Assembly: GCA_033182465.1 (NCBI GenBank)
Contig: CP137328.1
Span: forward strand, 1,612,001 to 1,676,000
Direction: 5' to 3'
Length of the DNA stretch: 64,000 bases
DNA from: Sanghuangporus weigelae
Taxonomy: Eukaryota > Basidiomycota > Agaricomycetes > Hymenochaetales > Hymenochaetaceae
Part shown: positions 23,521 to 61,434 of the stretch, piece by piece
Layout: each line of letters opens with the position of its first letter
How positions within the stretch are numbered: the first letter of the stretch is position 1
The notes under the pieces: model-generated
Databases searched by the model: none
Told to the model about the DNA's origin: nothing
The model's input: only the letters and a program-made list of their open reading frames with translations
Translations under genes and position numbers: made by a program

Positions 23521-24115
23521 CGCTGCTGCTTTGTTGTCGTCGTCGTCGAGAAAAGGAATGTGGTGGCCAAGCGGGCCTGGATGAGAAAAGGAGAGAAAGG
23601 ACGAGGTCGTGAAGGAGGCGATAGGCGAGATGGCGGGCAGAGGACAAGCGGGGATGATATCGAAGCGTCGGCTGGGCGCGACTTGATTACCTCATTCCAC
23701 CGACAATCATCCCACGAGGATCGTCAATCACCGAGCTATCTATCCTCCTCCTCCTAGCAACCGCACACTTCATGTCCACTCTCTTATGCAGGGAGTGTCC
23801 CCGAATTGTATCCTTGGATATGCCCTGCATTAACTACTAGACAGACCGAGCGCGAGAGAGCGAACTGCAGAAATCGATTTATAACATCACGAATAAACAT
23901 CCACTCGATTGATACGTGTAACGAATCTTCTTCCAATAAACATGACTGCTCATGAGTTAGTCGCAAGAATCTGCAGCGCTTATGTATATAGTCCCGACAT
24001 CTGTGCCTTGCCAGTATTATGCAAGGTCTCTTGGATCTGCGGGGAAATAAGAAAATGCTGCATTCAAGGTAAATTCACAAAAATGAACAAATAACGAAGG
24101 GTAGTCTAGAAGAGT
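23521..24115. other. intergenic: promoter of the membrane protein and 3' flank of NUP84
   Basis: About 0.6 kb. It contains the upstream region of the membrane-protein gene. From about 23860 on it is the left edge of the tandem duplication described separately. No gene seen. Confidence 0.6.
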
Positions 24116-27100
24116 CTAGGAAAGCACACGAAGAGGTCTCAACGGATCTGACCCGCCATTCTCCAGCCCACGTAGAATCGCCTGGCGTATCGAGCGAAGA
24201 TAGTCTTCCAGACGCTGCACACCATCACTGATGAAGTCCTCGTACAACCCGTACCGCGAGTCTGCGACGATATTTGCAAGGCTGAATGCGTGTTTCAGGT
24301 TTCTTAGAAAAAGCGCAGAGGCGCGTAAGCACGGGAACTGCGAGATGAAAAGACGAGGAAGGAAAGCGGACTAACCGAGGAATCCTGTCTCCCAATCCGA
24401 CAAGCAAGTCATGTAGTCGTACGACGAGTTCCGGGATGTAGATTCTCCGTATGCGAACCATGACGAGTTTTCGTTGGTCGCCTGTTCGTCAGCTATATCA
24501 ATTTCAAGGCAACTAAAAAGAAAAAAGGACACATACGAGTCTGACTTCTCGCCACTTCTTCTTCGTTGACAAGCCATTCCGTTGTCAGCATCTCCACAAT
24601 CCTCTCCCTAATGTCATCCACTAATTTCTATTGAACAAGAAAAAATCGACAGTTCAGCCGCCACAATATGAATGAAAGAAGGCAAAAAGAAACTCACGGA
24701 ATAGGCATCCAGCCATTTCTCCTTCCCTCCCTTGGTTGTCAAAGAGCGCTCTACAGTATGCGCCTCCGCAACACGATCGAACAACTCCCAAATACCGAAG
24801 AACTGTAGGTAGTGCATGTATTCCGTGCTCTGACTCCGCGAACGAGCACCCTCGGCAGGAAGAAGTTTGAGCTGGGAGGGGAGCATTCGGAGTAGCGTAC
24901 GCGCGCCATGGATTCTTCCGCATCCTTGAGGTTTATTGTATGTCAGTACCGGGAGAGAGACGTGGAAAAAAGGAGACGAACCTAAAAAATACCGAATGAT
25001 AGCATTCGCTTGCTCCAGTGCATCCGGATACGTTTGTTCATAGAACGTTGTCCACTCAATCGAGCGGATGAGGAACCACTCTGTATCTGACAGAGTGTCC
25101 TTCGTAACTACTGGAGGTAGAGTTACTTTCATACGTGGCAGCATCTATGACACCGGTCATAAGAGTTCTACATTTATGCGGAATAGGCAAAAAACGAACC
25201 TCGAACGCTTTTTCGAGCGTTTTCTCCGTTGTGACCTGAGCGACGCGGATCATGTCCAGAGAGTTCTTTTGGGCACGCAACAAAGCCTGTCGACGTTCGT
25301 CGATGTCTACAGACAAATCTAGACTCGTGAGGAACAGAGCATAACGCTCGACGGCATTGTCGCCTAATGCGCTCGCGTAGAGTGCTATATGGTCACGTTG
25401 GCCTGCTCTCTAGAGTTCTAATTTAGTAACATGCGTGACTTTGCAGAAGATACGGATAAATACCTCAAGAACCTGAAGGTAGACTTCGAGTATGGTCTGT
25501 GTCGCATCCGCAGGAATAGGCATGTCGATTAGTCGAAGGAAAAGGCATAGATGAGCAAAAAATCGCGTTAGGCTCGGAAAGCTACACGTTCAGTCAGTAC
25601 CGACATTACATTGTACAGTTTTGTGAGAAGAAACTGACTTTGGCTGAGTAGGGTTGAACTCGTCAGATTGGAGACCTATAGCGAATTCTTCGAGTAGTTT
25701 GTCCGTTCTATTGAGGATAATATGAAGCTGAGAAACGTGGAAAGGGTCTGTTGACGGAGGCCTATCGGACGTTAAAATCAGCCTGGTTGGTGATCTCGGA
25801 AAGACTAAAGCACGTACCCCTCCGCAACGCCAACATGCGTCAACGACTCTAGAGCAGCAACCGCCTCTCGCTCCCACTCCCTCTCCTCCCTTTCCTCTGC
25901 TCGTTTTTCCCGCTGTTCGCGCGCAGGAGTAAAGGTCGCAGCAGATGCCTCTTCCGCTGCGATACGCTCGACAGCCTCAAGTCCACCTTCCCAATAACCT
26001 TCTCCAATCCGGTGAAGCGCGTCGGAGGTCCGGCCTTCACATACAACACTGACTTGCGCCCAGAGGTGGTCGTGCCACGTTCTACAGACACTTTTAAGCA
26101 CGACAGACGTCGCAGCCGATGGCGCGAGAGCTGCATGTAAAGCGCGGTCCGGTTCGGAAAGAAGAGGCTACCAAAATCAATGCGCTTAGTCGAGGGCGAA
26201 AAAAAGGTGTAAGTGGCTTACATTCAAGGCAGCACGCGTGCACGTCTGCTTCCAAAGCTTTCTACGCTTATTTCCTGACCAGCCTTCTGCAAATTCTGTA
26301 TCGCCATTTTCGTTCGTCTGAGTTTGCCTTGTAAGCGCCTTCCAGTCGAAAAGTAGCGAGCCACGTATACACCCTGCACGCCAAGGCCGTTTCGCTCTTC
26401 GGCACAAGTCAACGGCTTCATCTATCTTCCCGGCTCGTACGTATACATACAAAGCCTGTGCTAGAGCTTTCTCGTAATTCTGTGTTCTCCGTTAATGTGA
26501 TGCTATTCAAGGCCGGGCAATCGGAACTCACAGCATCATCAGCAGATAGAACTTTCCCATCATTCTCCCTGTTCAAAGCATCTGGATCCAATTCAGTAAC
26601 GAGTTTTTCCACTTCGCGTCGATCGCCCGTCCTCTGTGCCTGTTGCAACCTTAGTCGCGTAAATTTCCAGTAGCCTGTCGCGTTTTCAGGAGGAATAGGC
26701 ACAGGCGCGCTATCATGCAGCCATTCACGGACTATCACGAGTTCATTGAGGAGAGGAGAGTCCCTGAGAATAGATTGTGCGAGCGTTCTAGTAGGCAAGT
26801 AGGGATTCTTGCGGAGGAGCTCTTTTGCGGATGGAAATGGAGCTGGTTCGGTCTTACGAACACTGATCATGCATTGGGTTTGAGTGTATCTGATATCTAC
26901 AAAATGGCAGAGTTTACTCACGACATGAGCAACTGAACGAGATCCCATGTATTACTCTCCAGCTTCAACATCGCAATCTCCTCCTTCGTGGCCGGAGTCA
27001 CAACCTGCCCTTCAGTCGCTTCTTTCAATTCATGAAGCCTAGTAGATTTGCAGAAGTCATCAGCAGACAAACTCATCATCTAATGTCCTATACGCACCGT

Positions 27101-27231
27101 TTCTGGCACATCCTGCTTAACCTCGGTGCGAATCCCTTGTCGCGGTCGAGCACGGCGTCCAGGTCGTCTCGATTCGAGAGACATCCTGCGAGTACCTCCG
27201 CGGCTTGTGCGTAGAATGTCGTCGTACTCAT
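24116..27231 (-). CDS. NUP84: Nucleoporin Nup84/Nup107
   Basis: Scaffold subunit of the Y-shaped (Nup84/Nup107-160) complex of the nuclear pore. I read 13 minus-strand exons: 27231-27098, 27038-26922, 26862-26532, 26479-26222, 26167-25818, 25761-25639, 25581-25464, 25409-25200, 25144-24982, 24924-24698, 24627-24537, 24481-24376 and 24281-24116. They give 797 aa, close to family size (yeast Nup84 726 aa). Recognisable family blocks are NYEKALAQALYVYVRAGKID followed by DLCRRAKRPWRAG (the alpha-helical segment typical of Nup107), TWHDHLWAQ, a run of helical repeats, LLRMLPSQL with YLQFFGIWELFD, and the C-terminal IYIPELVVRLHDLL. The protein is all-helical with no membrane segment. It is the intact member of a duplicated pair; the partner at 31490-32969 is decayed. 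Introns are 40-80 nt. Confidence 0.9.
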
Positions 27232-28028
27232 TACTATCGTTCAGATACCAAGATTATGCCGGCCGTTAAAAAGCGAACAAGAAAACGAGAGGAAACTGTC
27301 GTTGTGGACTGTGGTTTGACCTTGTTCAGGACAGATTTGGTTCCATATTCGTGGGAAAACCGCATCCAAACTCTGAATACTTCGATTTAAATCATACTAA
27401 TTAGTAATTATGAAATAGGTATCTTTGGGAAGGAAAACAATTTCTGCTGTCGGTGAAATCGTAGTCATCACTAGTACCACATAGAACTCAACTTATGTCA
27501 TATGTAGATGTTTCTCGGTTTAAGTCTTCTCGCACAGGACTAGTACTGATTTTAGTATCTGAGGCGTGGGAGAAGATCGTCCATATTTCAGGCTCATGAA
27601 AGCAAAACTCTCCTTATCCAAGGACAGTCTACATGAAGACGTCCAGTCCTTCAGTGGCAGGAACCAGGTCAGTTGTACCGGTATGGTATGTTTGCCCATT
27701 TCTTTGCGACTTTATGTCGATCTCATCGAACAATTATACAGTAGACTGAGGTTTTCGTAGAAGGCTCTTCTTCAGCTAACCTTTGATATGATGGCGCTGG
27801 GATTGATCTCCTTCGTCAAAGCATTGCGGTTCTTTCTCTCTCAAGATTATGGGATACCACGGCGATCTCAAAAGATCACCGAGGCGATAAACGATCCATT
27901 TATTACATCTGAGGTACTGGAGGAAAAATGCAAGGTACGGTGGAACACAAGGTAAACAGACAGCTGAAACTGGCGAGATAAGCACAGAAGCAACAGCAGA
28001 TAGCGAGCACGAGGTGTAGCGCTGTGCA
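27232..28028. other. intergenic: NUP84 promoter and gene A 3' flank
   Basis: About 0.8 kb, duplicated at about 32970-33749. It contains the NUP84 upstream region and, at 27861-27910, the 3' element shared with other family genes. Short open frames are not supported. Confidence 0.6.
27861..27910 (-). promoter_or_regulatory. Shared 3' element downstream of gene A
   Basis: About 120-170 nt past the stop of gene A. On the + strand it contains AAAGATCACCGAGGCGATAA followed by an AT-rich tail. Related versions (GATC-A/G-CCGAG core then AT-rich) lie downstream of genes B, C, E and F and in the D remnant. Probably transcribed 3' UTR or a polyadenylation region; function inferred only from conservation and position. 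Confidence 0.45.
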
Positions 28029-29347
28029 TCATTCTTCTTGCGCAGGTCTAGTAAATGCCTCGTTGCGCATATTTGATTCCTCGAATCTATATGGTGTTGC
28101 TCGGCGAACCAGGAACGCGAAGTCATCCGGATCTAGTTCTCGCGCCTCCCATGTTGGAGCTGTTTCTGTCTCGACAACCTCGACATGGACACCTGGCGAG
28201 GACGGAGCCATTGTAACGTTGTGTCGCTCGGTGGACGGGAAAGATTCGAATGGATTTCTGTGCGGAAAACCAGCCTCGTTCCTGTCGCCACTAGGCTCGG
28301 TATCATTCCGGAGTCTAGAAGAAATCCGTGGTTTGGACAGGACTAGCATAGTTCGTGCCAAAACGAATTCTGTCGCTGAGCACGTGCCCTTGCGACGAGA
28401 GCGTTGTAAGGGGCTTGACGTTAAACGTGGTGCGGGTGCATTAACATTTTCCTTCCGAGACTGTCCCGAACAGACTGCAATGGGGTCGGAAACATTGTTG
28501 AGAATAGGCATCTCATCATGTCTTTGCTCTGCGCCGTGCTGGGTCTCAGGCAAGATTAAGACGTCGTTAGCTTCTTCTACTCCCGGGTTCGCGTTTGTGG
28601 TAATTCGGAGGTTGCGTGCAACTGAAGGCGCTTCACAAACGGGTGTACTCCGGCGGATGTTCCGATGAATGCGCCGTGTCTTAGCTCGTTTCGAAACAAC
28701 ATCACCCGTTTGCAGATCTGCGTCGCTCGTCTCTTCTCTCCCTCTCTTTCGTCCGGTTATTACTATGCTGGTATCGTCTGAGGTGCCGTTATTATGCTTT
28801 GCATCGCGCACTCCCGTCTCCAATGGGTCGTGGTCCGGCGAAATCTCTGCGATAATTTATTAGATAATGAGACAGGTATCGGATTTGGTCACACACTTCC
28901 AGAAACAACTAGAGTCGATATTACAGAACTTGAGTCACCTTTCTTCTTGGTGGCTTGTTTTGCGCGACGTGGCTTGGCCGCACCTGGGAGATCCGTTTGA
29001 TATAAAAGGAAACTAAATTTCAGATATGAATGCTTACGAGTTGCCTTCGTGCCGCGACGACGACGACCAGCGATTCCGGATTTCGGATCAGTAGATGCAG
29101 CCGCGTGAGTAGCGAGTGGCTTGCTGTCTATGTATATTTTGGAGTTGAGAACCTCATTGTTCTCTGTGCCTCTGTCATTTGCGGAGATGCAGCGTTCATT
29201 GACATCTTTCTCCGAGTCTACATTGACGGCGGAGTCCTTTTCATCGATGACACTACGTTGTGGTTCCGCAGTGACGGCCCCGGACGCTTCAGAGCCGCCA
29301 TTGTTGGCGGCGAGTTTCTTCGCCATGGCACGCGTAATGAGTCCCAT
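28029..29347 (-). CDS. Family gene A: disordered basic protein with TRAMAKK N-terminus
   Basis: Unrecognised; founder of the local family. Three exons on the minus strand (29347-29038, 28983-28939, 28846-28029) give 390 aa. The N-terminus is MGLITRAMAKKLAANN. Next come an acidic/polar stretch, an Arg cluster (AGRRRRGTK) split by intron 1, and a second basic cluster (KPRRAKQATKKK). After intron 2 there is GRKRGREETSD, then SKRAKTRRIHRN, SPLQRSRRKG and the C-terminal block LDPDDFAFLVRRATPY. No signal peptide or membrane segment; the basic clusters suggest a nuclear protein. It lies in duplication copy 1, and its near-twin C (33750-35059) has kept the same exon layout and full frame. The protein is low in complexity and I assign no function. 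Confidence 0.75.
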
Positions 29348-29469
29348 GTCCGTGATGATGAAATGTACAGACTAGAGATGGATAAGGGCAAAGGCTGGAC
29401 CCGCTCAAAGTTGGTATGTGAGCGAGGAGTGGTTGTGGTTGATTGTGAGGAGGTCGCGAGGAGTGTAGG

Positions 29470-29527
29470 GCCTTAAATAGTACGTGGCTTGGACGCGGTC
29501 ACGTTACTTGTTCAGCACCAGGCCACG
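29470..29527 (-). promoter_or_regulatory. Shared promoter block of gene A
   Basis: About 125 nt before the ATG of gene A lies a TATA-like TATTTAAGG (minus strand). About 20 nt further upstream is a block containing GTAACGTGACCGCGT and, beyond it, CGTGGCCTGG. The same arrangement and spacing recurs before genes C, E and F. Confidence 0.6.
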
Positions 29528-29668
29528 ACTCAAATCGCGACTCGCCTGCAAGATGTAAGTCAAGATAGTGTTCGGGTATATTTGTTCGCACCTTTCAAGA
29601 GATTAGGTCACGTCACCAAAACATTAGGGCTCATTGATTCCCACCTATCAGGTTTATGAGGTTGCACA

Positions 29669-29712
29669 GCGATCTTGAAGGATCACCGAGCAGAGGAGCT
29701 CATCTATTAAAT
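29669..29712 (-). promoter_or_regulatory. Shared 3' element downstream of gene B
   Basis: Directly after the gene B stop. On the + strand it reads GAAGGATCACCGAGCAGAGG, then an AT-rich stretch. Matches the elements after genes A, C, E and F in the core ATCACCGAG and general layout. Confidence 0.45.
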
Positions 29713-31053
29713 ATATCTTCGACGTACAAGGAAACCGAATTTGGGAGACCTGGCAGGAAAAAAAGGTAACAATATAGAAAAAGGAAAGCCGAAATCGGCA
29801 GGATACGTGGAAAGGGACTGGAAACAAGCATAAAGGCAGCGCCGTGCGCTTGCTTTCATCCTTCTTCCCCCTCCCCCTCCCCGGGTTCCAATGATGGCCG
29901 GATTGCGTAATTCGGACTCGGGAGGAGTATACGGTGTTACCCGGCGAACCAGAAATGCGAAGTCGTCTAGATCTAGCTCTCGCAGCTCCCATGCAGACCT
30001 CTTTCCTACCTCGCCGACTTTGTCATCGTAGTAGCGATTGTTCATGCCGAGATCGTTTGAGGCTCGCAAAAAGCTGGTCTGCAAGTCAACACGGGCACGT
30101 GGCAAGGACGGAGCGGTTAAGACCTCTCTAATATCTCTTTCCGAGAACTTACCCTTATGAAGAGAGCGCCGTGCGACGCTTGTTGAACTTTGTCTGAGTG
30201 CGTTCTCCTTTTCCTCCCGACGACGCCTGGATGGGACTGCAACTAGATCGAGAGAACTGTAAGGACTAGGCATATTGGCGGCCTTGGGTTCCGGGCCATA
30301 CTGTTCTTTACACAAAGAAAGGCTATCAGTGTCTGTGCACGAGTTCGTGCAATAGGAATCCCAAAGTTTACGCGCAGCCGAAGACGTCTCGTCAATAATT
30401 GCGTCTTGGCAGATCTTTTGACGGACGCGCCGAGTGTTGGTATACGTTGGACTAATGTCGCGACCTGGTTGTGGATCTACGTCGCTCATGTCCACTCTTC
30501 CTCACTTTTGTCCTGTCGTGACTATGCGGGGACTTTTTGGTTTGCCTTTACTATCCTTCCTAGCGCGTGATCTTGTTTTTGAATTACCACTGCCCGGCGA
30601 GGGCCCTGTGATCAAGCCCGCGACTTCAGCGACTGAAACGTGCAATGACATGTCACTCACGTCTAGATACGTCTAGCGGTGATGGCTCATGATCTGAGCC
30701 GTGTTTGCTCGCCATGGCTTGTGCAGCACGACTTGGCTTGGCCGCACCTGGGAGAAGTCCGTTCAGTATAAAACTCAGACGTGAAAGCTCACGGGTTGCG
30801 TTCTTATCCAGATACAGGTGGGCCAGTGTGGATCGACTTGCTCTCTGTATGGATGTTGGATTTGAGAACCGCGTTGGTCTCCGTGTTCTACCATTAGCAG
30901 CGACTCGGTTTCTGCTGACGTCTCAGTCCGCGTTGATGGCCGGGTTCTTTTCAAACGCGAAAAAGTTTGATTCGCAGTGATGTATCTAGATGCTTCAGAA
31001 TGACTATTATTGGCGGCGAACTTCTTCGTCATGGCGCGCGTGACGACTCCCAT
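29707..31053 (-). pseudogene. Family gene B, broken paralogue
   Basis: Paralogue of gene A in the same copy of the duplication. Exon 1 starts at 31053 with MGVVTRAMTKKFAANN but loses frame soon after: compared with remnant D it lacks 4 nt after the AATCAA codons (about 30968-30980). Exon 2 lacks the GT donor found in A and C at the same place, although a GTGAGT lies about 30 nt on. In exon 3 the codon aligned with the first Arg after GRK in gene A is TGA (30502-30504). Beyond it the frame stays open for about 260 codons and keeps NTRRVRQK and LDLDDFAFLVRRVTPY, so a shorter protein from ATG 30489 or 30495 cannot be excluded. On balance a pseudogene. Confidence 0.65.
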
Positions 31054-31489
31054 GTCTCGGTGGTGGAGAGTACAAGTTGGAAGTTGATAGGGACAAAGGT
31101 CGGACTTGCTAAGGCTCGGATGCCAGTGTAAAGTGGTTGTGGTCAATTGTCAAGAGTTCGTGAGGAGGGCAAAGCAAATGATACTGATGAGAGCAGCGTA
31201 GAACAGAAAATAAGAGACCGCAATTCAGAGATCGAATTTATAGTAAATATTCATATAACATCATGAATAAACATCAATTCGAATGGTACTGTGTAATGGA
31301 TTCTGATAAATATGACTTCTCAACAAGCTCGTTGCTTCACCCTACACTGAGTACCGCATAATTCCTACATCCCTACCAAGCTCATTGTTCTGCAAGAACT
31401 CTTGGATCCATCAGGATGCGAGAAAGAAATCACATTCAAAGTTAATTCACATAAAAGTGAACAATCTATACAGAAAGGCCCAGAAGAGT
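31054..31489. other. junction between the two duplication copies
   Basis: Contains the upstream flank of gene B, which lacks the promoter block seen at genes A, C, E and F. The boundary of the two copies is at about 31180-31220, and the start of copy 2 follows. No gene seen. Confidence 0.55.
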
Positions 31490-32969
31490 CTAGGACAGCA
31501 TCCGCAGAAGTCGCAATGGAACTGACCCAGCTCGCGTAGAATCGCCTGCCGTATCAAACTGAGAAAGTCTTCCAGCAGCTGGACAACACCATCGCTGATG
31601 AAGTCTTCGTACAGCCCCTTGTGCGAGTCTGCGAGGCTGAATGCATGCTTCAGCTTCAGGTTTCCGGGAGTACACAGGCGTGTGCGAGTAACTAGGTAAC
31701 AGGAAGGGAAGAAGGGGATACTAACCGAGAGAGGAATCCTGCCCTCCGACCCAGCGAGCGACCTATGTAGTCGTACGACGAATTGCGGAATGTGGATTTT
31801 TCGTATGCGAACCATTACGAGTTTTCGTTGAAGTCAGTGAAGCGCATCGGACTTCCGATCTTGACATACAAACAATGCCTACTTGTGCCCAGGGTTGGTC
31901 ATGCCACCTTCAACAGACACTTTTTAGGACGACAGATGTCGCGGTCGATGGTGCAAGAGCTGGGTGTGAAGCGCGGTCTGATTCGAAAAGAAGAGGCTAA
32001 CGAAATCAATGCGTTTAGTCAAGGGAGAAAACCTATGTATAAGTAGCTTACATTCAAGGCTGCCCGCGCACGCGCCTGCTTCCGGAGCTTTCTACATTTA
32101 TTTCTTAACCAGCGCCTTCTGCAAATTCTGTATCGCCATTTTCGTTCGTCTGAGTTTGCCCGATAAGCGCCTTCAAGTCGAAAAGCAGTGAGCCACGTAT
32201 ACATCTTGCACGCCATGGTCGCTTCGCTCTTCGACATATGTCAACGGCTACATCTATCTTCCCGGCTCGAACATATCCATACAAAGCTTGTGCAAGAGCT
32301 TCTTCATAGTTCTTTGTTGTTCGTTGATGTGATTCCGCTCAAGAACGGGGAATTAGAGCCCACAGCATCATCAGCAGACAAAGCTTTCCCATCATTCTCT
32401 CTGTTCAAAGCATCTGGATCTAATTCAGTAACGAGTTTTTCCACTTCGCCGTCCTCTGTGCCAACCTTAGTCGCGTAAACTTCCAGTAACCTGTCGCGTT
32501 TTCAGGTGGAATCGGTACAAGGGCACTATCATGCAGCCATCCACGAACTATTACGAGCTCATTGAGAGGAGAGTCCCTGAGAATAGATTGCGCAAGCCTT
32601 CTAGTAGGCAAGTAAGGATTCTTGCGGAGGAGCTCTCTCGCGGATGGAAATGGAGCTGGTTCGGTCTTACGAACGCTGGTTATGCATTGGGTTTGAGTGT
32701 ATCTGATATCTACAAAACGGTAGAGTTTACTCACGACATGAGCAACTGAACGAGATCCCATGTATTACTCTCTAGCTTCAACATCGCAATCTCCTCCTTC
32801 GTAGTCGGAGTCACAACTTGCCCTTCGGTCGCTTCTTTTTCTGGCACATCTTACTTAACCTCTGTGCGAATCCCTTGTCGCGGTCGAGCACAGCGTCCAA
32901 GTCGTCTCGAATCGAGAGACACCCTGCTAGTACCTTCGCGGCTTGTGTGTAGAACGTCGTCGCGCTCAT
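31490..32969 (-). pseudogene. Truncated NUP84 pseudogene in duplication copy 2
   Basis: Clear copy of the intact NUP84 gene. It has an ATG at 32969 and the first coding blocks (CLSIRDDLDAVLDRDKGFA, NPYLPTRRLAQSILRD, PIPPENATGYWKFTRLRL), but intron 1 is gone together with adjacent codons. Short deletions after the GYWKFTRLRL block shift the frame, and exons 6-11 are missing: sequence of exon 12 runs directly into sequence of exon 5 near 31830. The C-terminal block LYEDFISDG is still recognisable. The terminal stop of the intact gene is altered here. Not translatable as one product. Confidence 0.9.
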
Positions 32970-33749
32970 CACTATCGTTCAGATTCCAGGATTATGCCGG
33001 CCGTTGAAAAACGAGCAAGAAAACGAAAGAAACCGTCGTTGTGGACTGTGGTTGACCTTGTCCAGGACGGATTTAGTTCTGTATTCGTGAGGCTTTACCA
33101 CCAATCATAAATAGATATCTTTAGGAAGAAAAACAATTCCAGCTGTTATGAAATCGTAGTCATCGCTAGTACTATGTACATAGAACTTATGTTACGTATG
33201 TAGAGGTTTAACGTCGTCTCCAAATCGGTCGTGATCGTCGCAGGCAGGACTGATTTAGTATCTGAGGCGTGGGAGAAGATCGCCCATATTTCAGGTTCAG
33301 GCGAAAATGATGAAAGCAAACATTCTCATCAGGGACCGTCTGCATGGAATAACTCTCTACTGCAGGAAACCAGCATGGTATGATATGTTTCCAGCTTCTT
33401 CGCGGCTTCGCATCGATCTCATCGAACATTAATACAGTAGACTGAGGTTTTCGTAGAAGGCTCTTCTTCAACTAACTATTCTTTGATATGCTGGCGCTGG
33501 AATTAATCCCCTTCGTCAAAGCATTGCAGTTCTTTCTCTCTCAAGATTATGAGACACCACGACGGTCTCAAAAGATCACCGAGGCGATAAACGATCTATT
33601 TATTACATCTGAGTTACTGGAGGAAAATGCAAAATGCAAGGTACGGTGGAACGCAAGGTAAACAGAAAACTAGAATTGGCGAGATAAGCAGAATGGGGAC
33701 AGAAACAACAGCAGATGACGAGCATGAGGTGTAGTGCCGTACATCATTC
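32970..33749. other. intergenic in copy 2: pseudogene upstream region and gene C 3' flank
   Basis: Duplicate of 27232-28028. Contains the 3' element of gene C at 33561-33610. No gene seen. Confidence 0.55.
33561..33610 (-). promoter_or_regulatory. Shared 3' element downstream of gene C
   Basis: Copy of the element at 27861-27910, with the core AAAGATCACCGAGGCGATAA unchanged while the flanks show substitutions. Confidence 0.45.
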
Positions 33750-35059
33750 TTATTGCGCAGGTCTGATAATTGCCTCGTTTCGCACATTTGATTCTTCAAA
33801 TCTGTACGGCGTTGCTCGGCGGACCAGGAACGCGAAGTCATCCGGATCCAGTCGTGGTGCCTCCCATGTTGGAGCCGTTTCTGCCTCGACAACCTCGGTA
33901 TGGGCACCTGGAGAGGACGGAGCCGTTGTACCGTCGTGTCGCTCGATGGACGGGAAAGATTCGGATGGATTTCTGTGTGAAAAGCCAGCCTCGTTCCTCT
34001 CCCCGCTAGGCCCGGGATCATTGCGGAGTCTAGAAGAAATCCGTGGTTTGGATAGTGCCAGCATAGTCCGTGCCAAAACGAATTCTATCTCTGAGTACGT
34101 GCCCTTGCGACGAGAACGCTGCAGGGGACTTGACGTTAAATGTGCTGCGGAGGCATTTTCTTTTTCCTCCTGGAACTGCCCCGAACAGACCTCAACGGGA
34201 CCGGGGACACTGCTGAGGCTGTGTGTCTCGTCAGACCTACGCTCTGCGCCGTATTGGGTCGCAGGCAAATCAAGGCCATCATTTGCTTTTACTTCGGAGC
34301 TCGAGTTGGTCGAGTCCCGAAGGTTGCGCTCAACCGAAGGCTCTTCGCCGATAGTTGTACGTTGAATGTTTCGACGGCTGCGCCGTGTCTCAGCACGTTT
34401 CGAAACATTATCACGACTCGTATGCGAATCTGCGTCGCTCGTCTCTTCTCTTCTTCTCTTTCGGCCGGCTGTTACTACGCTGGTATCTTCCGAGGTACCA
34501 TTGTTATGCGTTGCATCACGCACCGTCGCCGATGGGTCGTGGTCCGGCGAAATCTCTGCGATAATTTATTAGATAATGAGACAGGTATCAGATTTGGTCA
34601 CTCACTTCCAGAGACAACTAGAGTCGCTACTGCACGACTTGAGCCACCTTTTCTCACGGTGGCTTGTGTAGTGCGACGTGGCTTGGTCGCACCTGGGAAG
34701 AGACCCGCTCAGTATAAAAGGAAACTAATTTTCAGATACGAATGCTTACGAGTTGCCTTCGCACCGCGACTACGACGACCAGCGATTCCCGATTCCGGGT
34801 CAGTAGACGGAGACGCGTGAGTAGCGATCGGCTCGCTCTCTGTATGGATTTTGGGGTTGAGAGCCTCATTGCTCTCTGTGCTTCTGTTATTTGCGGAGAT
34901 GCAGTGTTCATTGACATCTCTCTCCGAGTCCACATTGACGGCGGAGTCCTTTCCATCGTTAACACTACGTCGTACGTCCGCAGTGACAGCCCCGGATGCT
35001 TCAGAGCCGCCATTGTTGGCAGCGAGTTTCTTCGCCATGGCACGCGTAATGAGTCCCAT
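33750..35059 (-). CDS. Family gene C: intact twin of gene A
   Basis: Unrecognised. Three minus-strand exons (35059-34750, 34692-34648, 34555-33750) give 386 aa. Exon 1 and exon 2 are exactly the length of those in gene A (310 and 45 nt), with the same intron phases. The protein keeps MGLITRAMAKKLAANNGG, the Arg cluster split by intron 1, GRKRRREETSDADSH, SPLQRSRRKG and the C-terminal LDPDDFAFLVRRATPY. Substitutions are spread throughout, and exon 3 carries length changes that keep the frame. The neighbouring duplicated genes (NUP84 copy, D) have decayed, so an open frame here hints at maintained function, though the duplication may simply be young. Likely a nuclear, disordered, basic protein. 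Confidence 0.75.
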
Positions 35060-35411
35060 GTCTATGATGATGAATTGTACAATCTGGAGATGGATAAGGA
35101 CAAAGGCTGGACCCGCTCAAAGTTGGTATGTGAGCGAGGAGTGGTTGTGGTTAATTGTGAGGAGGTTGCGAGGAGTGCAGGGCCTTAAATAGTGTGTGGC
35201 TTGGACGCGGTCACGTTACTTGTTCAGCACCAGGCCACGACTCAAATCGCGACTCGCCTGCAAGATGTAAGTCAAGATAGTGTTCGGGTATATTTGTTCG
35301 CACCTTTCAAGAGATTAGGTCACGTCACCAAAACATTAGGGCTCACGAATTCTCGCCTGCCAAGTTTATGATGTGCTACAGCGATCTTGAAGGATCACCG
35401 AGCCGAGGAAC
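35060..35411. other. intergenic: gene C promoter and remnant D 3' side
   Basis: Duplicate of the gene A promoter region. It holds the shared promoter block at 35181-35239 and the 3' element of the D remnant at 35381-35420. No gene seen. Confidence 0.55.
35181..35239 (-). promoter_or_regulatory. Shared promoter block of gene C
   Basis: Near-identical to the block at 29470-29527: TATTTAAGG-like TATA on the minus strand about 124 nt before the ATG, then GTAACGTGACCGCGT and CGTGGCCTGG further upstream. Confidence 0.6.
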
Positions 35412-35741
35412 TCATCTATTAGATATACCTTCGACGTACAGGGAAACTGAGTTCTTACTACGAGTAGCACCCGATCTTCGGATGGCAGATACAGGTGGGC
35501 AGGTGTGGATCGACTTCCATTCTGTATGGATGTTGGATTTGAGAACCTCGTTGGTCTCCGTGTTTCTACCATTAGCAGTGACTTGGTTTCTGCTGATGTC
35601 TCTGTCCGCGTCTACATTGATGGCCGGGTTCTTTTCAACCGCGACAATACCCGCTTGATTCGCAGTGATGTATCCAGATGCTTCAGAACGACTATTATTG
35701 GTGACGAATTTCTTCGTCATGGCGCGCGTGACGAGTCCCAT
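35412..35741 (-). pseudogene. Family remnant D (first exon only)
   Basis: Starts with MGLVTRAMTKKFVTNN at 35741 and stays in frame through the exon 1 region, including the AINVDADRD block also seen in A and C. The sequence then crosses a deletion junction at about 35455-35490 and ends in unrelated residues. The second and third exons present in gene B are missing. It corresponds to gene B of copy 1. It has the better-preserved exon 1 but no body, so I treat it as a relic, although a short peptide of about 110 aa could still be made. Confidence 0.65.
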
Positions 35742-35860
35742 GTCTCGGTGGTGGAGAGTACAAGTTGATAAGGACAAAGGTCGGACTTGCTAAGGCTCGG
35801 ATACCAGAGGAAAGTGATCGTGGTCGATTGTCAGGAGTTCGTGAGAAGCGCAAGGCCTCA

Positions 35861-36999
35861 AGTATGCTTATACACATGAATGCGCCAACTCTTTCAGAAG
35901 ACAATAGCTAGTTTTTCTTCTATGTCCAATATTCAATTTGCGTATTTTTAATTTACAAGAATACGCTTGATTAGAAATGAGTCATGTCGAGTTTAGTGCG
36001 CTTTTGATTGTCCTGCTGGATAACTAAAAAGCATGCAACATGACACACCCTCAAAGCCTTTCAGATACTAACGCTCAGAATGTCCAAAGAGGAACTGCTG
36101 TTGATAAATCAATAATCCAAAGCATCCCAAAGCGAGTCAATGCAGGTGCCTTCATGACGACCCTGGATTTCTAGCCAGATACAGGAAGATAGTACAGTAG
36201 AGCAGACGTATTTGAATGCGACACGGCTTGTGTACATGCTGAACAGACTTCGTGAATAAATTGAGGGTTTAGTAAGGAATTGGGCAGCCAAAACTTGGTG
36301 GAGTCTACTAGGTATCTACTAGGTATTCATTAAATAGCTTTTTCAAGCCTATTCTTCCCAGATGAGATACCATATTTTTGTGGGAATTGAGTATCAGAGA
36401 TCGCATCATGACTTCCACTCGGAGTCGGAGTTCGAAACGGATGAGTCACGTCACCCTCATCGGCTCCATCAAAGGCGTGAGAGAAATTCTGATCTCTCCG
36501 TCAACTTTCACTCCACTCAAAGGCGCAGCCTGACTACCAACACTCATCTCAGGACACTCTGTATCAAAGTCGAATGGCTCATACAGATCATCTTAGATGT
36601 CTATGTCGATCTGTTTCAGTGCAACAAGTGATGAAGCTCTCGACGCGCCTAAATGTCGAGTTCTTGCACGACCATATGCGTATCTCGACAGTTGAACTGG
36701 GCCTCGATCCAAACCTTTCGTAGCGATGCTGAGACGCTATCACTATCACACCCTCAACTTTATGAGGCGCTCCGGCAATTTCGGAAGATCGCCGAGCCAA
36801 CGAACGACTGAAGCCGGCCGTCCGTATATTACATTGATACTGCACAAGAGGAACAAGGAAAAGGAAAAGTACAAACGAGATCGAGAGTAAAGTCCAACAT
36901 TGTATCAGGACCAGGTGAATCACCCTCGTTGAGCAGAATCGAGCGCGATCGTTGGACAGACAGTGGGACTCGTCATTGCGAGTAATGAACGCGTCACGC
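35861..36999. other. intergenic between the duplication and gene E
   Basis: About 1.1 kb beyond copy 2. It contains the 3' flank of gene E, with its version of the shared 3' element at 36772-36835. Open frames on either strand show no domain. No gene seen. Confidence 0.55.
36772..36835 (-). promoter_or_regulatory. Shared 3' element downstream of gene E
   Basis: About 165-230 nt past the gene E stop. Reads GGAAGATCGCCGAGCC and then an AT-rich TATATTACATTG tail on the + strand, a diverged version of the element after genes A to C. Confidence 0.35.
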
Positions 37000-38615
37000 T
37001 TAGCTCGCTTCGTGCATTGAAGGTGGAGGCGAAGCAAGCCCTGAGATCTCGCCTGATCGGATAGCGTTTATGAGACCTTGATCCGGCTCGGGAGCTAGAC
37101 TCCGATAACGATTCATGACTATGTGGTCGTGAGCGTCCTCGGAGGCTTCGATCAACAGCTCATCACCGGGTTCTTCGTCTTCGAGCTGTAGCAGGCGTGT
37201 GAGTACCACGCCCGCTCCGTCTTCTTCAGCATCCCGAGAAGCGAGAGGAATCATCATGTCCAGATCTTGGTTGATAAGGACGATCTCCTCCTCTTCCTTT
37301 ATGTACGGCGGAGGAGTCATAAGAAACTCGATGGATGGACTTCGTGGTTCGGTCTTGATTCCATCCGACCAAACTGCTGATGGGACACTCTCCACAGACG
37401 TGTGACGTCCATGGGAGAGTCCCCTTGGACCTGGCCTGGTCGGTTCGCTGACTAGTTCCCAGTTCATAGGGAGAGAAGATGGCAGGGGAGATTCTTCGTC
37501 ACTTCCTGGTCCGCAAATATCTGGTGGGTTTGACTCGTCGTTGACCAGGGTCTCTTGCGGCGACTCCGTCGAAGTTTTGGAAGCAGACGAGCTCTTTCCC
37601 TCATTTCCACCTGAGTGGTCAGAATCTCCCAAATCTCGTCTTCGCATACGGCGCGAAGGGCCAGGTGCTTCAATCACGTCATCGGCCTCTTCGTCATTGC
37701 GCTTTCGCTTTCTCGATTCTGATTTCTTCGTTGGAGCGTTCTTGCGACCTTTCATATTTCGAGAGCGGTCTGATCTTCTGCAGTCCTGTTGGGGAATGCA
37801 GACGGACGATCTGGCCGCTAGACGTGCAGAACGTCTTTTAACCGTGGAAGAGCAGTTGTCATGAATTCCGATTTCCCAAGTTATTGGACCTCGAGCATCC
37901 TGACCCACACTGTCGTTTGGTGATGTCTCCAGCTTGCGCCGAACGCGTCGCGTGTTCACGCATGGACCGGCTGCAAATGTTGGAGCTTTTTCTTCTTCAT
38001 CTCTCCTTCTTTTCACGCCTCGGTTTGATGAACGGTGATAATCTTCTTTCTCGGATCTATCTTTTGCGGAGCCATTGATGGTTGACGACGTATACGGTGG
38101 CAATTTTGTTGTTGCTGCCGAAGTGGAGAACGATAAGAATCGTTTCAAATGGACGGAATGTAAATTTACAGACCTCTGCATTTATTCATGGGGTCGTTCG
38201 AGCGTACCTCAGGCTTCGAGCTACTCTTCTTTGTAGTGGCTTGAACGGAGCGTGGTTGCTTCCTTGCGCCTGTTAACGGTCATTAACGTAAGAACTGCTT
38301 AGGGGAAGAGTAGTTTGATTGCTCACGAGTAGGTTTTCGATCGTTACCATGCGAATTGGTCCCTGACGGGACACCTGAACGAAAACGAGTACGTGCAGAC
38401 TTGTCCTTTCTGTGGTATGTCGGAAGAAGAGCACTGTTGCTCTTCGCGCCTGTGCTGCAAGCAGAAGCATGGTCATCAACAGCACCTCTCACCGCATCTT
38501 CACGGATGACGGCGTTCGTACTGTGATCGTTATGGTATGATTTTGTTGATGTAGTTTCGCCAGAACTATCATTCCTGATGGTACATTTCTTGGTCATTGA
38601 GCGTGTAACGACCAT
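37000..38615 (-). CDS. Family gene E: diverged disordered nuclear-type protein
   Basis: Unrecognised family member outside the duplication. Exon 1 (38615-38327) begins MVVTRSMTKKCTIRND and ends in phase 1 at the same place as A and C. Exon 2 (38269-38208) gives RARKQPRSVQATTKKSS, matching KPRRAKQATKKK of gene A. The last exon runs to the stop at 37000 and encodes GVKRRRDEEEK, NTRRVRRKLE, KRRSARLAARSS, ESRKRKRNDEE and an acidic C-terminal half. It lacks the LDPDDFAFLVRR block. Joining exon 2 to the last exon with an acceptor at 38176 keeps frame but makes a 32-nt intron, which is shorter than any other here; the true acceptor may lie further in (for example after about 38060). Total is about 500 aa or somewhat less. 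Several basic clusters suggest a nuclear location. Confidence 0.6.
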
Positions 38616-38745
38616 TCTGAAGCGCGGAGTGATGATGGTTACAAATTGACAGAAGTGAAGCACAGCAGAGGCTTGGGAATCGCTGGGAGCGAGGGTCTCG
38701 ACAAGGACCGGTAGCTCTTTAATGCTAGAGCTCCCTGGCAGACTA

Positions 38746-38805
38746 GGACCTTAAGTGAATACGAGTCGAAGCACGGTTACGTTCTTTGACCAGCAACAGG
38801 CCACG
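38746..38805 (-). promoter_or_regulatory. Shared promoter block of gene E
   Basis: CACTTAAGGTCC (minus strand) sits about 135 nt before the gene E ATG, with AACGTAACCGTG and CCGTGGCCTGTTG further upstream. Order and spacing match genes A, C and F although the coding regions have diverged greatly. Confidence 0.5.
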
Positions 38806-39770
38806 GTCTAAGTTTCTGCAAATTTAAACTCCGCTTGTTTTCGACGCGTCGCTTTGAAGATGTGAAATACGTGATCTTTCTAGTGGTCTTCTTTTTTTAT
38901 TTGGAATGTATCAACAATTATCAAGTGTTGTGCATTGGCCGTTGCGTCAGAGCACAACCCACATCAAATACAGCTCTATGGAATGGGCTTCTGTTGATTT
39001 AAACAGCGCTGTCGCTTAGATCTTCCCGCTTGGACCGTCAAGGCTCAACAAAAGGTGTTCGGCGTGCTTTTGCACTGCAGGGTCACTTTGACAACGTCGA
39101 AGGAGACAGATTGCTTTGTCTCTCTCTTCCCATTCTCATCTCTTGTCCTCTCTACTCCGATCGGTAGGCGATACATCACTAGCTATACACTGGAGAGGAA
39201 CAATACATACTCTTGGGTTCTTGGTTTTTCAGTAGTAATAATACTGTATCGACTACAGTGCCATCTCCAGTGAAGAAGACATACAGTATGTACAGTTCAA
39301 GAAAGAAGTATAGACGCAAGCACCTCGATTGAAATGAGTCCTTCACAATAACAACTCTTATATATGTCACCTTGAATCAAAGGCAAGAAACGTACCGTAC
39401 CGCGTCGCAGAATCTGCCGAGAGTAATTGACGCTGAATCCATCTGAAATTTCTAATAGTAACTAATAGGTTTGCCGTTCTTGCACTTGATTAAACTTGGT
39501 GCCTGAGCAAATCAAAGCGCGATCGTTGCTAATTCAGGTACGGTGGCGTGGGAGATGTGGAAATGATAAACGGATCGCATCAAAGAAAAGCATGCATCCT
39601 TTTTTCGACTGTCTGCACCCCGTCGAATGACCGATGAAGAAACATGACAAACGAGCATCTTTTCGTTGCTATTCAGGTGAATGTGCATCTCTCATTCAGA
39701 ACATGAGACTTTATCTTCGTCCTACAGGACCCCAACGCAAGTCACACATTAGACGCTCATAGCGCACTTC

Positions 39771-39810
39771 AGCAATCCTGGGGGACTGCCGAGCCAGCGG
39801 AGAATACATT
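39771..39810 (-). promoter_or_regulatory. Shared 3' element downstream of gene F
   Basis: About 210-250 nt past the gene F stop. Core GGACTGCCGAGCCAGCGGAG followed by an AT-rich tail on the + strand; the most diverged member of the set. Confidence 0.3.
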
Positions 39811-40017
39811 CATTTTGCAGATAATTTTACAGGTCCAGTAATAATTGTACAAGGAAGCAGACCTCCAAGGTATGTAGAAACACCTCTCTGCTGATGGTGA
39901 AAAGGGAAGAAGTCGTAAAAAAACGCGACTTGCTAGAACTTCGTGTTGGTCCGTAGGCTTCTAAGCCTGCCTCTTTATAGACAAGGCAAGTCGACCTGAT
40001 TCCGGATATAGATGCAA

Positions 40018-41010
40018 TCAAACTTTGGTGGCCCCCGGATGCTCCATGCATTCACCCTTCTTCACCTCAGAAAACTCCATCAGTATCCGGAGTAGTTCGT
40101 TGTCTAATGCTGTCAGCCCAAGATAGATACGCGTCTTCTTCGGATTGCGTTCTAGCGGTACTGGGAGAAACAGAGCCGTGACAGTCTGCTTCATGACTCC
40201 ACCCGAAAACTTCAATAGCACATTGGCTATTGCTACTTCGTCAGGGGCTTCGGTGTCGCGGTGGTGTGAAGAAGTCGGACCTGACACGACCTCGACAATT
40301 CCCGAGATGTTCTCGTTGGTGGGAATAGTCGAAGTCTTGTTGCCGTCTGTGTTGGCGGCTCGATGTCGGACACGTCGTTTCGACGGGGTACCCTCTTGAA
40401 CGGCAACAGTGGCATTCTCTTTATCGTTGTCGCCCTCGTCCCTCCGCCTCTTTTGACCTCGTTTCAGCTGTGGATGGACTGACGGTGAATCTACAGAGGG
40501 AATGTCATCAAATTTTTGGTAAAGTAAGGAGCAGCTGGAGAGGACACACCAATGCTCCGGTCTGGTGAGTTTGTGCCATTAGCCGGGTTTGGACCATCTG
40601 GCGTGGTGGTGGCTTGACTCGACTTGGTTGATGCTATGATGCGACTTTAGTCAGTAGAAAAGCAGGGTGAGCGAGCAATGTGCTTGGTTACTAGTGAGCT
40701 TGTGACCACTACGACACTTTGTTCTTCCTGAGCTCGGACCAGGAGCACCAAAAATGTCATTGTCGCTGTTATCTTTGGAGATTTGTGTTGCTTGGGCTCC
40801 GTTGGCCCTTGTGTCTCCTCTGATTGAAGAGGCAAGGTTGTTAACAGAAGCTTCTGCCGCTTCTCCATAGATGGCGGCGGCGAGGCACATCGAAGAGTCA
40901 GTGCTGCCAACTTGGGCTGCGGGATCAGTGCAAGAATCGCTGTGTTCGCCGGTGTTAGTGCTGGTTGCGCCTTCCTTGGCCATCCTGGCCATCCGTCTCG
41001 TCAGGACCAT
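40018..41010 (-). CDS. Family gene F: TRRMARM protein with a distinct C-terminal domain
   Basis: Unrecognised. Three exons on the minus strand (41010-40692, 40633-40550, 40490-40018) give 291 aa. The N-terminus MVLTRRMARMAKEG is a diverged form of the family start. Exon 1 ends in phase 1 after a KCRSGHKLT stretch, as in A, C and E. After intron 2 comes LKRGQKRRRDEGDND, the counterpart of GRKRGREE in gene A, then SKRRVRHRA. The last about 100 residues (VAIANVLLKFSGGVMKQTVT, LFLPVPLERNPKKTRIYLGL) look like a folded beta-rich domain unlike the other family members. Promoter and 3' elements are shared with the family. No function assigned. Confidence 0.7.
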
Positions 41011-42515
41011 GTTGATAGATGGATGTAAAATGGGAATATGGGGACAGGAATCGCTTCGGGCAGGAAACTCAAGATCGAGGTGGATGTGGTTAATTGTTAG
41101 GAGGTTGTGGATTGAACGGACCTTAAGTAGTGCGTGACCAAAACGCGGTCACGTTACTTATTCTACAGGCGGCCACGGTCTCTGGCACCTCCCTTTCCGA
41201 AGCGGACGTCTGTATACTAATATGTTAACGCACTTGAACTGTTCTCGGGCGTTGATAGTCCCCATCTGCTGTCAAGACATCGTGCTTGTGCCTAACATGT
41301 CGCCTACGTATGTGGATGGGTTGGAGTCTTTATCGTTGTAGCTGGCGTGACTGCTGATGCCTTTGCGGTCAACTATTGACTGCGAATAAGAAGTTCTTCG
41401 CAAGGACAGCTAACGACTAAAGATCTAGAGAACTTGAGACTACGCGCATTTGTAAATACTATATAGTTCCTTGAATTTTATTTTGTTCTTCAAAATATTA
41501 CCTGGCCTTATATTCACCGAGATTGGCGTGTTGTTTACAAAATTGAGGAGAGACGGTACGATGCAATTTCTTCATGTAACCAACGAGGATGACCTTATCT
41601 GGTCTTCTTAGCTTATTAGTAATCATTGACCGGCCCTTGACAGATCTTGAGAATTAAACTTTTTCGTCCAGATTGATTGTTCTTTCTTTGTTTATTACCA
41701 CCACCAAATGTATGGCGCCGACTCACTGTATTCTCGTCCCATGGCCAATGTCTCTGGCATGTAGGGGAGGAATACAAATCCGGGATACATAGTGCCTTTT
41801 TCATTCAACGTAGTCCATATGTATTATTATTTTTTCCTCATTCAAAGTTACTGTCTCTCAAGGAGACATGGACTCGGCACATAAGAGATTCATCCTTCCG
41901 CCCTGCATCTCATACTAACAACGCAGTCGACAATGGCGGTATCTACCGCTGAGTTGATGGCTCAATGCACTCTACTGGTAAACGGAATATGCTTGCAAAT
42001 ATCCAGCCGCGCTGGGTGGCTCAAAGATTCAATTTCTTATTGTCTATTGTTTTCTAAATTGGAGCCAAGAAACGCCTGCCAAATGAACTGCACGTTGCAG
42101 TCCTGGTGCTCTGTGATTGAGGTTTTGCCGCCTCGCATTTGGGCGTTTGGCCCTGAAGGCATGTTTTCGTGTTGAGTTACTCTGTGCACACTTGCCTGCG
42201 CAAGTCTGTCCTCCTTCTCTTTCGTTCTGTTCAACGGGCGTCCAGCATGAAGTGGTGTCTGGGGATCAAGGCATTCAGCCGAGGGCTTACACCGAAATTT
42301 TCGGTACTGTAGTCAGTTTCGCGGAAACAGGAGTGGGGCTGCCTTGTTGAAGCCACCACAAGTTCCGGAAGCTTTTGTTTTGTTGTGGGCCACCTCCGGT
42401 GACTCGACCTTATAACTACTTAAAAGAGTTGTGAGTAATTTCTTTATGGAACGAGTGGACCACTGACCTATCTTAAAAGCCCCAACCTTAGTTATTCTTC
42501 GGCCAGACTACTATC
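41011..42515. other. intergenic: gene F promoter and kinase upstream region
   Basis: About 1.5 kb between divergent genes. The gene F promoter block is at 41118-41178. The remainder (41.2-42.5 kb) has scattered short open frames on both strands without recognisable domains. Nothing further called. Confidence 0.5.
41118..41178 (-). promoter_or_regulatory. Shared promoter block of gene F
   Basis: CTACTTAAGGTCCG (minus strand) about 110 nt before the ATG, then AAGTAACGTGACCGCGTTTT and CCGTGGCCGCC further upstream. The central block is identical to that of genes A and C over about 15 nt. Confidence 0.6.
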
Positions 42516-44604
42516 ATGACCTGTCTTCATGAGGCTACGCTATCCGAACAGCAGAATCGTCAGAAGGAATGCTGGACATGCTGGTGCGTAGATCGCATCA
42601 TTTCCCTTACTAATAGTAACCTGAAGTGTCTTTTAGCTCGGATTGTGATATCGCGCTTCCCGATTCACGAACCATCTTTGTTCCCAACCTCCTCGAACAA
42701 GTATCTCGTAACGAAGTCATTGAAAGCGGCATAGGCAAGCGCAGGAAACTTGGTGATGAGAGTTTTGTTTCTAAATATGCTCTGAATTGGGCAGACCTCT
42801 TGCCAGAGATTGAGAGTAGGAAGCAGAGTATCTTGGACGAACTCTCTACCGACAGCGCATCGAGTTCTCTGGAATGCAGAATGGGGAAGCTGCTGGATGA
42901 GATTGGAGCTGCGATCGGGAAACGCCTCGGTATTCCAAGGGTGGACATGTCGGGCGAATTCACCTGTCAGTTTTCGTTCTCGTCGGATGGTGATAATCGT
43001 TCTGTGTCGAATGCAGACAAGCCATCCGAGCTAGCTTTGACTGTACACGAATTTATCCGAGTCGATCGCCAACATGGATGGGGTCTCGTGATAGTCCCAA
43101 TGCTCTTTCGTCGGGACCGGGATATCGATGACTTCGACTGGACCTCATACAAGCTCCTCGCGTTTGCACGGCATATTTGGGAGCACACGTATTCTCGATG
43201 TTTCGTCATAGGTATTGCGTTTGGCAAAGACGATTTCCGGTTGATGATATTCGGCCAGTCGGGAGTAATGTTCTCCAGAAACTATGATATTTCGGGTGTA
43301 TCGGATTTCGCTCGACTCATAGTAGGGTTGCTGTTTGCAAACGAGGAGGTACTCGGTTACGACTCGTCCATGAATGGGCTGGAAATTCTTGTTAATGGAA
43401 ATGAGTACACTCCCAGGAATGTCTGCGGAAGGCAAGAGCTTACGTTCGAGGGTAGCACTTGTGTCCTTGCTAAACGTTTCGAAGACATGTACGCCATTAA
43501 AGACGTCTGGCTCGCGGGTTGTTGAATATGAATTGCTCAAGACTCTAGACGGCGCCGTCGATTCTACGGATTTCTTCAAAAAAGGTGGCATAGGACTGCC
43601 AACTCTTAATCATTTCCGCTATGTAATGAAGCCCGTCGGAACTCATCTGAATGAGTTCACTTGCCTGGAGGAGTTGATATCGGCAATTCGTGACATCGTC
43701 AAAGGTACGCTGGAATAATCTTCACTACTTTTTGTCACCTTTCTTTGACTCACCATCGCATAATAAAAGCGATTAAAGATCTTCACGATCGCCGCATCTT
43801 ACATGCAGATATAAGATACGATCATATTATCCTTGTACCGGACTCTGGTTCTCCAAGTTCTCTTCGTAAGGCGTGTCTCATCGACTTTGCCTACGCAATC
43901 GACTTGGAAGATTTACGCTATAGATATGAGGTATTGTGATGATTTAGCCATCATCGTAATTCTATGTGTTCACAAATTATCCTCAGGAGATTGCGCGGGC
44001 AGCAGCATACCCATGCATAAGCATCAAGCGGGGCTACTATCATGACCTCGAGTCGACATTGTACCTGCTATGCTTTGTATGCATGGCATTCAAGGGTCCG
44101 AGCAGTGGCAGCGCTCCGACATACGAGCCCGACTCTCCACTCTTACCATGGCACTATCCGACGACACCGTATGAATGGGAAGCAGCGTACCTCGATAGAT
44201 CTCAAGCTCTGACGTCTCGAATTTGTTTCAATGCAAGGATTTTGCGCCACTTCCATCCATATTTTGAAGACGTAAAGGAACGCGTGCTCAAGATGTACGA
44301 CGTACTGTTTCCGGATGCGCTGGACGCCTATCAAAGGCATAATGCCGGGATAACTCTCAGATATCTCTTCCGCAACTTACAGCAGGCTCAAACGCAACCT
44401 GACTCAATCGAGAATATCGAGCGTAGACAAGTAATGCTTCGACAAATACATGAGTATCAGAGGCGTTTGGCGATACAGGCTGTAGCGGATCAACCACCTG
44501 TCGAAGTCTTTAACAAGCTATTCTTGATTCTCGATGATACGTTGGATATGCTCAGGCGCAAGTCCTGGGCGAAGCTAGAAACACGGTTGACCATCCGCCT
44601 CTAA
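42516..44604 (+). pseudogene. FunK1-like protein kinase, frame-broken
   Basis: Resembles the basidiomycete FunK1 kinase family. Exons: 42516-42583, 42637-43704, 43770-43930, 43987-44604. The N-terminal half (AIKDVWLA, FGQSGVMFSRNYDISGV) is typical of the family's upstream region. The C-terminal half has LHDRRILHADIRYDH, IDFAYAIDLED and GYYHDLESTLYLL, the last being characteristic of FunK1. Exon 2 is out of frame: reading in from the left ends in TGA at 43522-43524 just after DVWLAGC, while the downstream frame resumes as RVVEYELLKTLDG. One extra base (or two missing) near 43510-43520 explains it. The catalytic loop has HAD rather than HRD and His where the metal-binding Asn is expected; the DFG position is DFA. 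So it is probably not an active kinase, unless the frame break is a sequencing error. Confidence 0.7.

Positions 44605-58945: not shown

Positions 58946-61434
<2,489 letters not shown>

Follow-up and report, generated by a model that had tools for sequence, protein, structure and literature searches.

A fast-evolving gene family on one contig of Sanghuangporus weigelae with a candidate nucleosome-docking branch

Six related genes in the window

The window analysed here is a stretch of 64,000 nucleotides from the basidiomycete Sanghuangporus weigelae (GenBank assembly GCA_033182465.1, contig CP137328.1, positions 1,612,001 to 1,676,000; the contig is called C11 below). Between positions 28,029 and 41,010 it carries an array of six related genes, named A to F, all on the minus strand. 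A first-pass annotation, made from the sequence alone, had reported these genes, and all six were recovered in their places. It had counted two intact copies, while four (A, C, E and F) are open in the window; B and D are relics, as it had said.

Gene A consists of exon 1 (29038..29347, placed by alignment and a splice model), which starts with MGLITRAMAKK, the basic exon 2 (28939..28983, splice model), which ends in a phase-1 donor, and exon 3 (28029..28846, splice model), and its whole product has 390 amino acid residues. In gene C, the splice model gives exons 1, 2 and 3 at 34750..35059, 34648..34692 and 33750..34555, and a product of 386 residues. Gene E starts with MVVTRSMTKK in exon 1 (38327..38615, splice model) and continues through exon 2 (38174..38269, splice model) into exon 3 (37000..38114), the whole product being a protein of 499 residues with a basic N-terminal part and an acidic C-terminal part; an RRSARLA motif lies at residues 222–228 (37816..37836). 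Gene F, starting with MVLTRRMAR, has its first two exons at 40692..41010 and 40550..40633 (splice models) and its third at 40018..40490, and encodes 291 residues including a KEN tripeptide. Relic B (29896..31053) has the start motif and a broken frame, and of relic D only exon 1 (35469..35741) is left. The four open genes have two introns each, both in phase 1, of 54 and 92 bp in A, 57 and 92 bp in C, 57 and 59 bp in E, and 58 and 59 bp in F, the junctions having been chosen by eye from alignments. This agrees with the earlier report of a basic cluster split by a phase-1 intron, whereas the spacing it gave for a second basic motif after intron 2 holds approximately. An ending common to A, B and C had also been proposed: A and C do share LDPDDFAFLVRR near the C-terminus, and B keeps LDLDDFAFLVRR.

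The family proteins are predicted to be mostly disordered. The charge-hydropathy rule puts 15 of the 16 examined on the disordered side and F just on the ordered side, and single-sequence structure prediction for exon 3 of gene E gave a mean pLDDT of 44.5 with three short C-terminal helices; low pLDDT throughout this exon is consistent with disorder and is a weak proof of it. The earlier description of the products as disordered thus stands, and that as basic overall does not, as the net charge is +6 in A, −1 in C, +5 in E and +3 in F, and the E-type proteins are bipolar. A nuclear location is probable.

A family of 23 copies on one contig

The genome (33.87 Mb, 13 contigs) was searched with A (16 matches at E ≤ 1), E (20 at E ≤ 1) and F (9 at E ≤ 5), and all matches lay on C11; this search scores only candidates from a first look, so that absence outside C11 is not absolute. 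We counted 23 copies, namely seven of the A type (A, C, A1, A2, A3 and the relics B and D), nine of the E type (E, E1, E326, E351, E358, E361, E1024 and the damaged E341 and E354) and seven of the F type (F, F1, F61, F65, F73 and the doubtful F63 and F74), an A-type 3′ fragment at C11:1,590.36–1,590.66 kb being excluded. Seventeen of the 23 are open through two introns, and the start motif is present in 22, with a degenerate start in E341. As a DNA pattern this motif has 13 exact matches in the whole genome, all on C11 (reversed control: 0). In the form M-x(1,2)-[VIL]-T-R-x-M-x-[KR] it occurs 15 times in 144 kb around the window, as against one occurrence in total in 20 Markov-1 simulations of the same length (mean 0.05), which bears out the TRxMxKK-type N-terminus described earlier.

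The six genes of the window are therefore a part of a larger whole. Sixteen copies form one cluster at C11:1,561.9–1,653.0 kb, which extends beyond the left edge of the window, and seven E-type copies lie outside it, six at C11 326–363 kb in one orientation and one at 1,024 kb. The latter (C11:1023857-1025409) is open and stands alone, roughly 0.6 Mb away from both arrays, and its promoter box is exact. The cluster is partly a mirror image, with F1-E1-A1-A2-A3-Nup107 pieces on the plus strand of the left arm and F-E-D-C-B-A-Nup107 on the minus strand of the right arm; the inner ends of the arms are about 34 kb apart and the matching stretches are 68–89% identical. Pieces of Nup107 (PF04121; window 23880-27025 and 31254-32838, and C11:1599910-1601508) are duplicated in fragments together with A-type genes in both arms, and a segment with the 5′ part of Nup107 and gene A (26012..29741) has a second copy at 31837-35453 that is 82–86% identical. 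A fungal-type protein kinase frame (PF17667, window 42626-43525, in the region 42626-44604) adjoins the cluster, and short stretches at 43.6–44.3 kb have inverted matches of 71–76% identity beside the left arm (C11:1601763-1601905 and 1602450-1602540).

Between-type protein identity is about 25%. Profile-profile comparison gave probabilities of 95.7 for A-F, 99.1 for E-F and 97.6 for E-A, while none of 60 column-shuffled controls exceeded 0.69; the homologous region of the three types is the N-terminal part of about 170–190 residues, and the C-terminal parts differ. E326, whose model requires a non-homologous donor (phase 0), was excluded from this comparison, and since phase 1 was imposed or rewarded in the F-type models and in those of the outlying E-type copies, the phases there are not independent evidence. 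The A, E and F types form a single gene family in which the intron positions are shared, which agrees with the kinship first proposed for the six. The earlier statement that the genes match no known family holds as well: no Pfam family was found for the exon frames of the window, where only the neighbouring Nup107 and fungal kinase passed the cut-off, for the seven E-type proteins or for four spliced A- and F-type proteins, and a PDB profile search with the E type returned no match at E ≤ 10. Viral contigs scanned with the E-type alignment yielded 233 pattern stretches and no relative.

Whole-gene dN/dS lies between 0.38 and 0.60 in 18 pairs, comprising all 10 A-type and 8 of 21 E-type pairs and none of the F type, and no bootstrap interval reaches 1; for C versus A the ratio is 0.38 (0.29–0.49). 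The last 130 codons of the E type are at 0.19–0.34 in eight pairs. Exon 1 of A2-A3 shows a ratio of 1.87, at a dS of just 0.04. As dN/dS well below 1 indicates that selection keeps the proteins, the A- and E-type copies are protein-coding genes under purifying selection. Furthermore, identity between A and A1 is 98–100% across some 600 bp of exon 3 and 78–86% in exon 1, and conversely A2 and A3 are 93% identical in exon 1 and 61–79% in exon 3. This patchwork means that copies exchange sequence, and the tract of 98–100% identity joins copies about 49 kb apart. The family is fast-evolving, fast-turning-over and previously undescribed.

Alignment of the upstream regions of the family copies revealed a box, AACGTGACCG-N9/10-CAC, which is not in the first-pass annotation. 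The whole genome contains 20 exact matches, 17 of which stand 111–146 bp before family ATGs, and the other three are on C2, C4 and C13 (reversed control: 1 match). In the window the box is found on the minus strand before A (AACGTGACCG-N9-CAC, 29484..29505), C (35196..35217) and F (41134..41155), and in a degenerate form before E (38761..38783, position read on the sequence). Of the 17 exact family boxes, 8 have GTCAC as their second half, which makes an inverted pair with GTGAC of the first half, and 7 have GCCAC. Besides the 17 copies with an exact box, E341 and A1 have one mismatch, F74 two and E three, and the relics B and D showed no box in the upstream check. As 8 of 1100 shuffled upstream stretches contain the box at up to two mismatches, those of F74 and E are weak. 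A box that has outlasted the divergence between types argues for shared control, and we consider the family probably co-regulated. In addition, of the 330-bp stretches upstream of E-type copies 7 of 9 contain CACGTG, as against 0 of 13 for the A and F types (F61 left out); it lies about 230–255 bp before the ATG, with the first match at 323 in E326.

The E-type motif and known nucleosome-binding proteins

The motif of gene E, also absent from the first-pass annotation, recurs as RRS[A/S]RLA in all seven aligned E-type proteins, with PRRSSRLA in E1, RRSARLA in the other six, and A, S or Y as the next residue. It is the most conserved seven-column window between E positions 20 and 370, having six invariant columns, and the same conservation was reached in 34 of 10000 permutations; codon changes within it are mostly silent and the sole amino-acid difference is A/S. 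When three E-type proteins were shuffled, RRS[AS]RL arose with a probability of 0.0006–0.00125. A degenerate DNA pattern (serine TCN only) gave 21 matches in the genome, 10 of which truly encode RRS[AS]RLA, and eight of these are E-type copies, the damaged E354 included. The reversed control gave 11 matches, which puts the background of the pattern near chance. The motif is thus invariant among the open E-type copies and nearly family-specific in this genome. These proteins (463–499 residues, low hydrophobic content) share one charge layout, with +22 to +32 in the N-terminal part and −22 to −27 in the C-terminal part in all seven.

Nucleosome-binding proteins with similar motifs are known. Vertebrate HMGN binds nucleosomes via RRSARLSA, whose arginines sit in the acidic patch of H2A-H2B (PMC12487698, which also names the H2A residues of the patch), and the layout of HMGN is a nuclear localization signal, a nucleosome-binding domain and an acidic chromatin unfolding domain (PMC11537863). 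Dsup of tardigrades uses PPRRSSRLT (PMC12487698, PMC6773438), and a loop of APC3 (CDC27) uses PRRSSRL (PMC11445581), in both cases with the arginines in the acidic patch, while cyclin B1 docks via arginines within its first seven residues (PMC11445581). With HMGN2 and HMGN5 the E type has in common the RRSARL core, identical over its six residues apart from the S that E1 has at position 4, a basic part followed by an acidic C-terminal part, and basic clusters like those for nuclear import. PRRSSRLA of E1 is close to the Dsup motif and both stand in disordered proteins, but in Dsup the motif is in the C-terminal region, and in the E type it is mid-protein, ahead of the acidic tail. Seven residues of E1 are identical to the APC3 loop, with no kinship between the two. 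The A/S difference within the E type is the same as that between HMGN (RRSARL) and Dsup or APC3 (RRSSRL), and the reported N-terminus of cyclin B1 loosely resembles the M-x-x-T-R start of the family, by eye only.

The E type is fungal and belongs to a multi-copy array whose A and F types are without RRSARL, and none of the seven E-type proteins has an HMGN match in Pfam at E ≤ 1. As the seventh core position also differs and the proteins are several times larger, the comparison indicates that the E type is not HMGN by descent. Searches of an open-access library, judged by titles and the openings of abstracts, showed no fungal HMGN motif; one item deals with Fusarium HmbC, a fungal HMG protein, and nothing that came up on disordered, lineage-specific families of Agaricomycetes bears on this one by its title.

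A partner for such docking appears to be at hand. Three H2A-like loci, one on C2 and two on C8, all read VLEYLAAEILELAG...IRNDEE, which we take, by residue numbering, to hold the acidic-patch residues; on this reading the H2A of the genome keeps them at all three loci.

Proposed working and competing explanations

We propose that the E-type proteins are disordered, nucleosome-docking chromatin proteins with an acidic tail, HMGN/Dsup-like by convergence, and we give this a probability of about 0.5. As with HMGN2, Dsup and APC3, the arginines of RRS[A/S]RLA would fit into the acidic patch of H2A-H2B, and the acidic tail would then loosen chromatin or recruit partners. The A and F types, sharing the N-terminal region with its start motif and basic stretch, might act as co-expressed partners or competitors, and KEN in these types and LxTPPP in the E type may let the cell cycle remove the proteins. 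More tentatively, and rather against the odds, the family could be an independent fungal class of HMGN/Dsup-type docking, a private regulon confined to a single chromosome, with about 17 intact, co-regulated and rapidly diversifying paralogues. One branch would then hold on to the acidic patch, and its sisters, which lost that hold or never had it, would tune it.

Several points weigh against docking. RRS[AS]RLA is short, two places outside the family (on C6 and C7) encode it too, the damaged copy E341 is without it, and core position 7 is A in the E type and S in HMGN, so that RRSARLSA is matched in part. The A and F types do not have the motif at all, so that an account of the whole family needs another function for them. 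HMGN proteins are far smaller than those of the E type, and Dsup is strongly basic overall, which the E type is not. Gene E, the motif-bearing gene of the window, is the one with the degenerate box of three mismatches. Whole-gene dN/dS near 0.5 means loose constraint, and six of the 23 copies are damaged or doubtful.

Among the other explanations, the family could consist of nuclear regulators limited to a part of the cell cycle, whose basic clusters are patches for import or DNA contact, which are defined by their degrons and in which RRSARLA has no nucleosome role. KEN is present in all five open A-type proteins (A, C, A1, A2, A3) and all five open F-type ones (F, F1, F61, F65, F73), where its chance in a shuffled protein is 0.06–0.10 (five proteins), and all seven E-type proteins keep residues L393, T395, P396, P397 and P398 (numbered as in E) unchanged. 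To read KEN and TPPP as degrons is weak. The Leu of LxTPPP at P-2 fits the Cdc4 consensus (PMC5216119). However, KEN is absent from all seven E-type proteins and from F74, its positions in the A and F types are not aligned by eye, and disordered proteins often contain short motifs of this kind. This explanation also leaves the most conserved mid-protein window of E unexplained; we consider it unlikely, if well worth keeping in view. A role as transcription co-regulators, in which the acidic-hydrophobic DxDxMIPLxS of E is an activation domain that partners bring to promoters, would suit the C-terminal 130 codons, which are the most constrained part in the eight E-type pairs, and the invariance of D412, D414, M416, I417, P418, L419 and S421 in all seven proteins; the stretch presumably resembles viral acidic activation domains. 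Pfam shows no DNA-binding domain in the family, and a co-regulator could dock on nucleosomes as well. We regard this role, taken by itself, as improbable.

The distribution of the copies bears on two further explanations. A selfish cluster of the drive or spore-killing kind, in which chromatin binding serves the element and not the cell, would account for the restriction to a single contig, the mirror cluster, the conversion tract and the occurrence of broken copies among intact ones. Against it speak the purifying selection seen in every one of the 18 pairs, the seven E-type copies far from the cluster and the lack of a noticed toxin-antidote pairing, for which no systematic search was made, as does the fact that STE3 and Homeobox_KN matches are on contigs other than C11. 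Such an origin seems to us quite improbable. A link to mating type was rejected, since at E ≤ 0.001 STE3 (PF02076) was found on C10 and C7 and Homeobox_KN (PF05920) on C1 and C9, with none on C11. The STE3-family matches lie on C10 at 716–719, 1545 and 1734 kb and at one place on C7, and 3 of 14 contain an internal stop, which introns may explain. The A-type copies do sit in duplicated segments with Nup107 pieces, so that the family could be no more than pieces of a transposon, or non-coding remains from segmental duplication of the Nup107 region. Against this, 17 of 23 copies are open across introns, dN/dS is well below 1 in every pair, the box is exact in 17 copies, no copies were found outside C11, and the Pfam searches of the family showed no transposon domain, terminal repeats not having been searched for. 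The first-pass annotation had named fragments of a known transposon as what would overturn its proposal, and none came to light in these searches. On selection, introns and distribution we rejected this explanation, which has hardly any probability left.

Other features of the window stand apart from the family. A spermidine synthase-saccharopine dehydrogenase fusion, which is a pointer to basidiomycetes, is encoded at 59,411-60,820, and its region (59063-61430) has an inverted second copy about 24 kb away (C11:1697907-1700360) with 67–70% DNA identity. Internal tandem repeats of 64–65% DNA identity at 14255-15520, beside a HisKA frame, are presumably the HAMP repeats of a histidine kinase.

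If the docking proposal for the E type is true, the family would be a candidate for an independent origin, and docking of this mode would be one that arises repeatedly. Since some of its natural paralogues carry the motif and others lack it, most of them under one promoter element, the family would also provide a set for testing what docking does in a fungus. Even if docking fails, the family would still be an undescribed one that is kept by selection and probably co-regulated.

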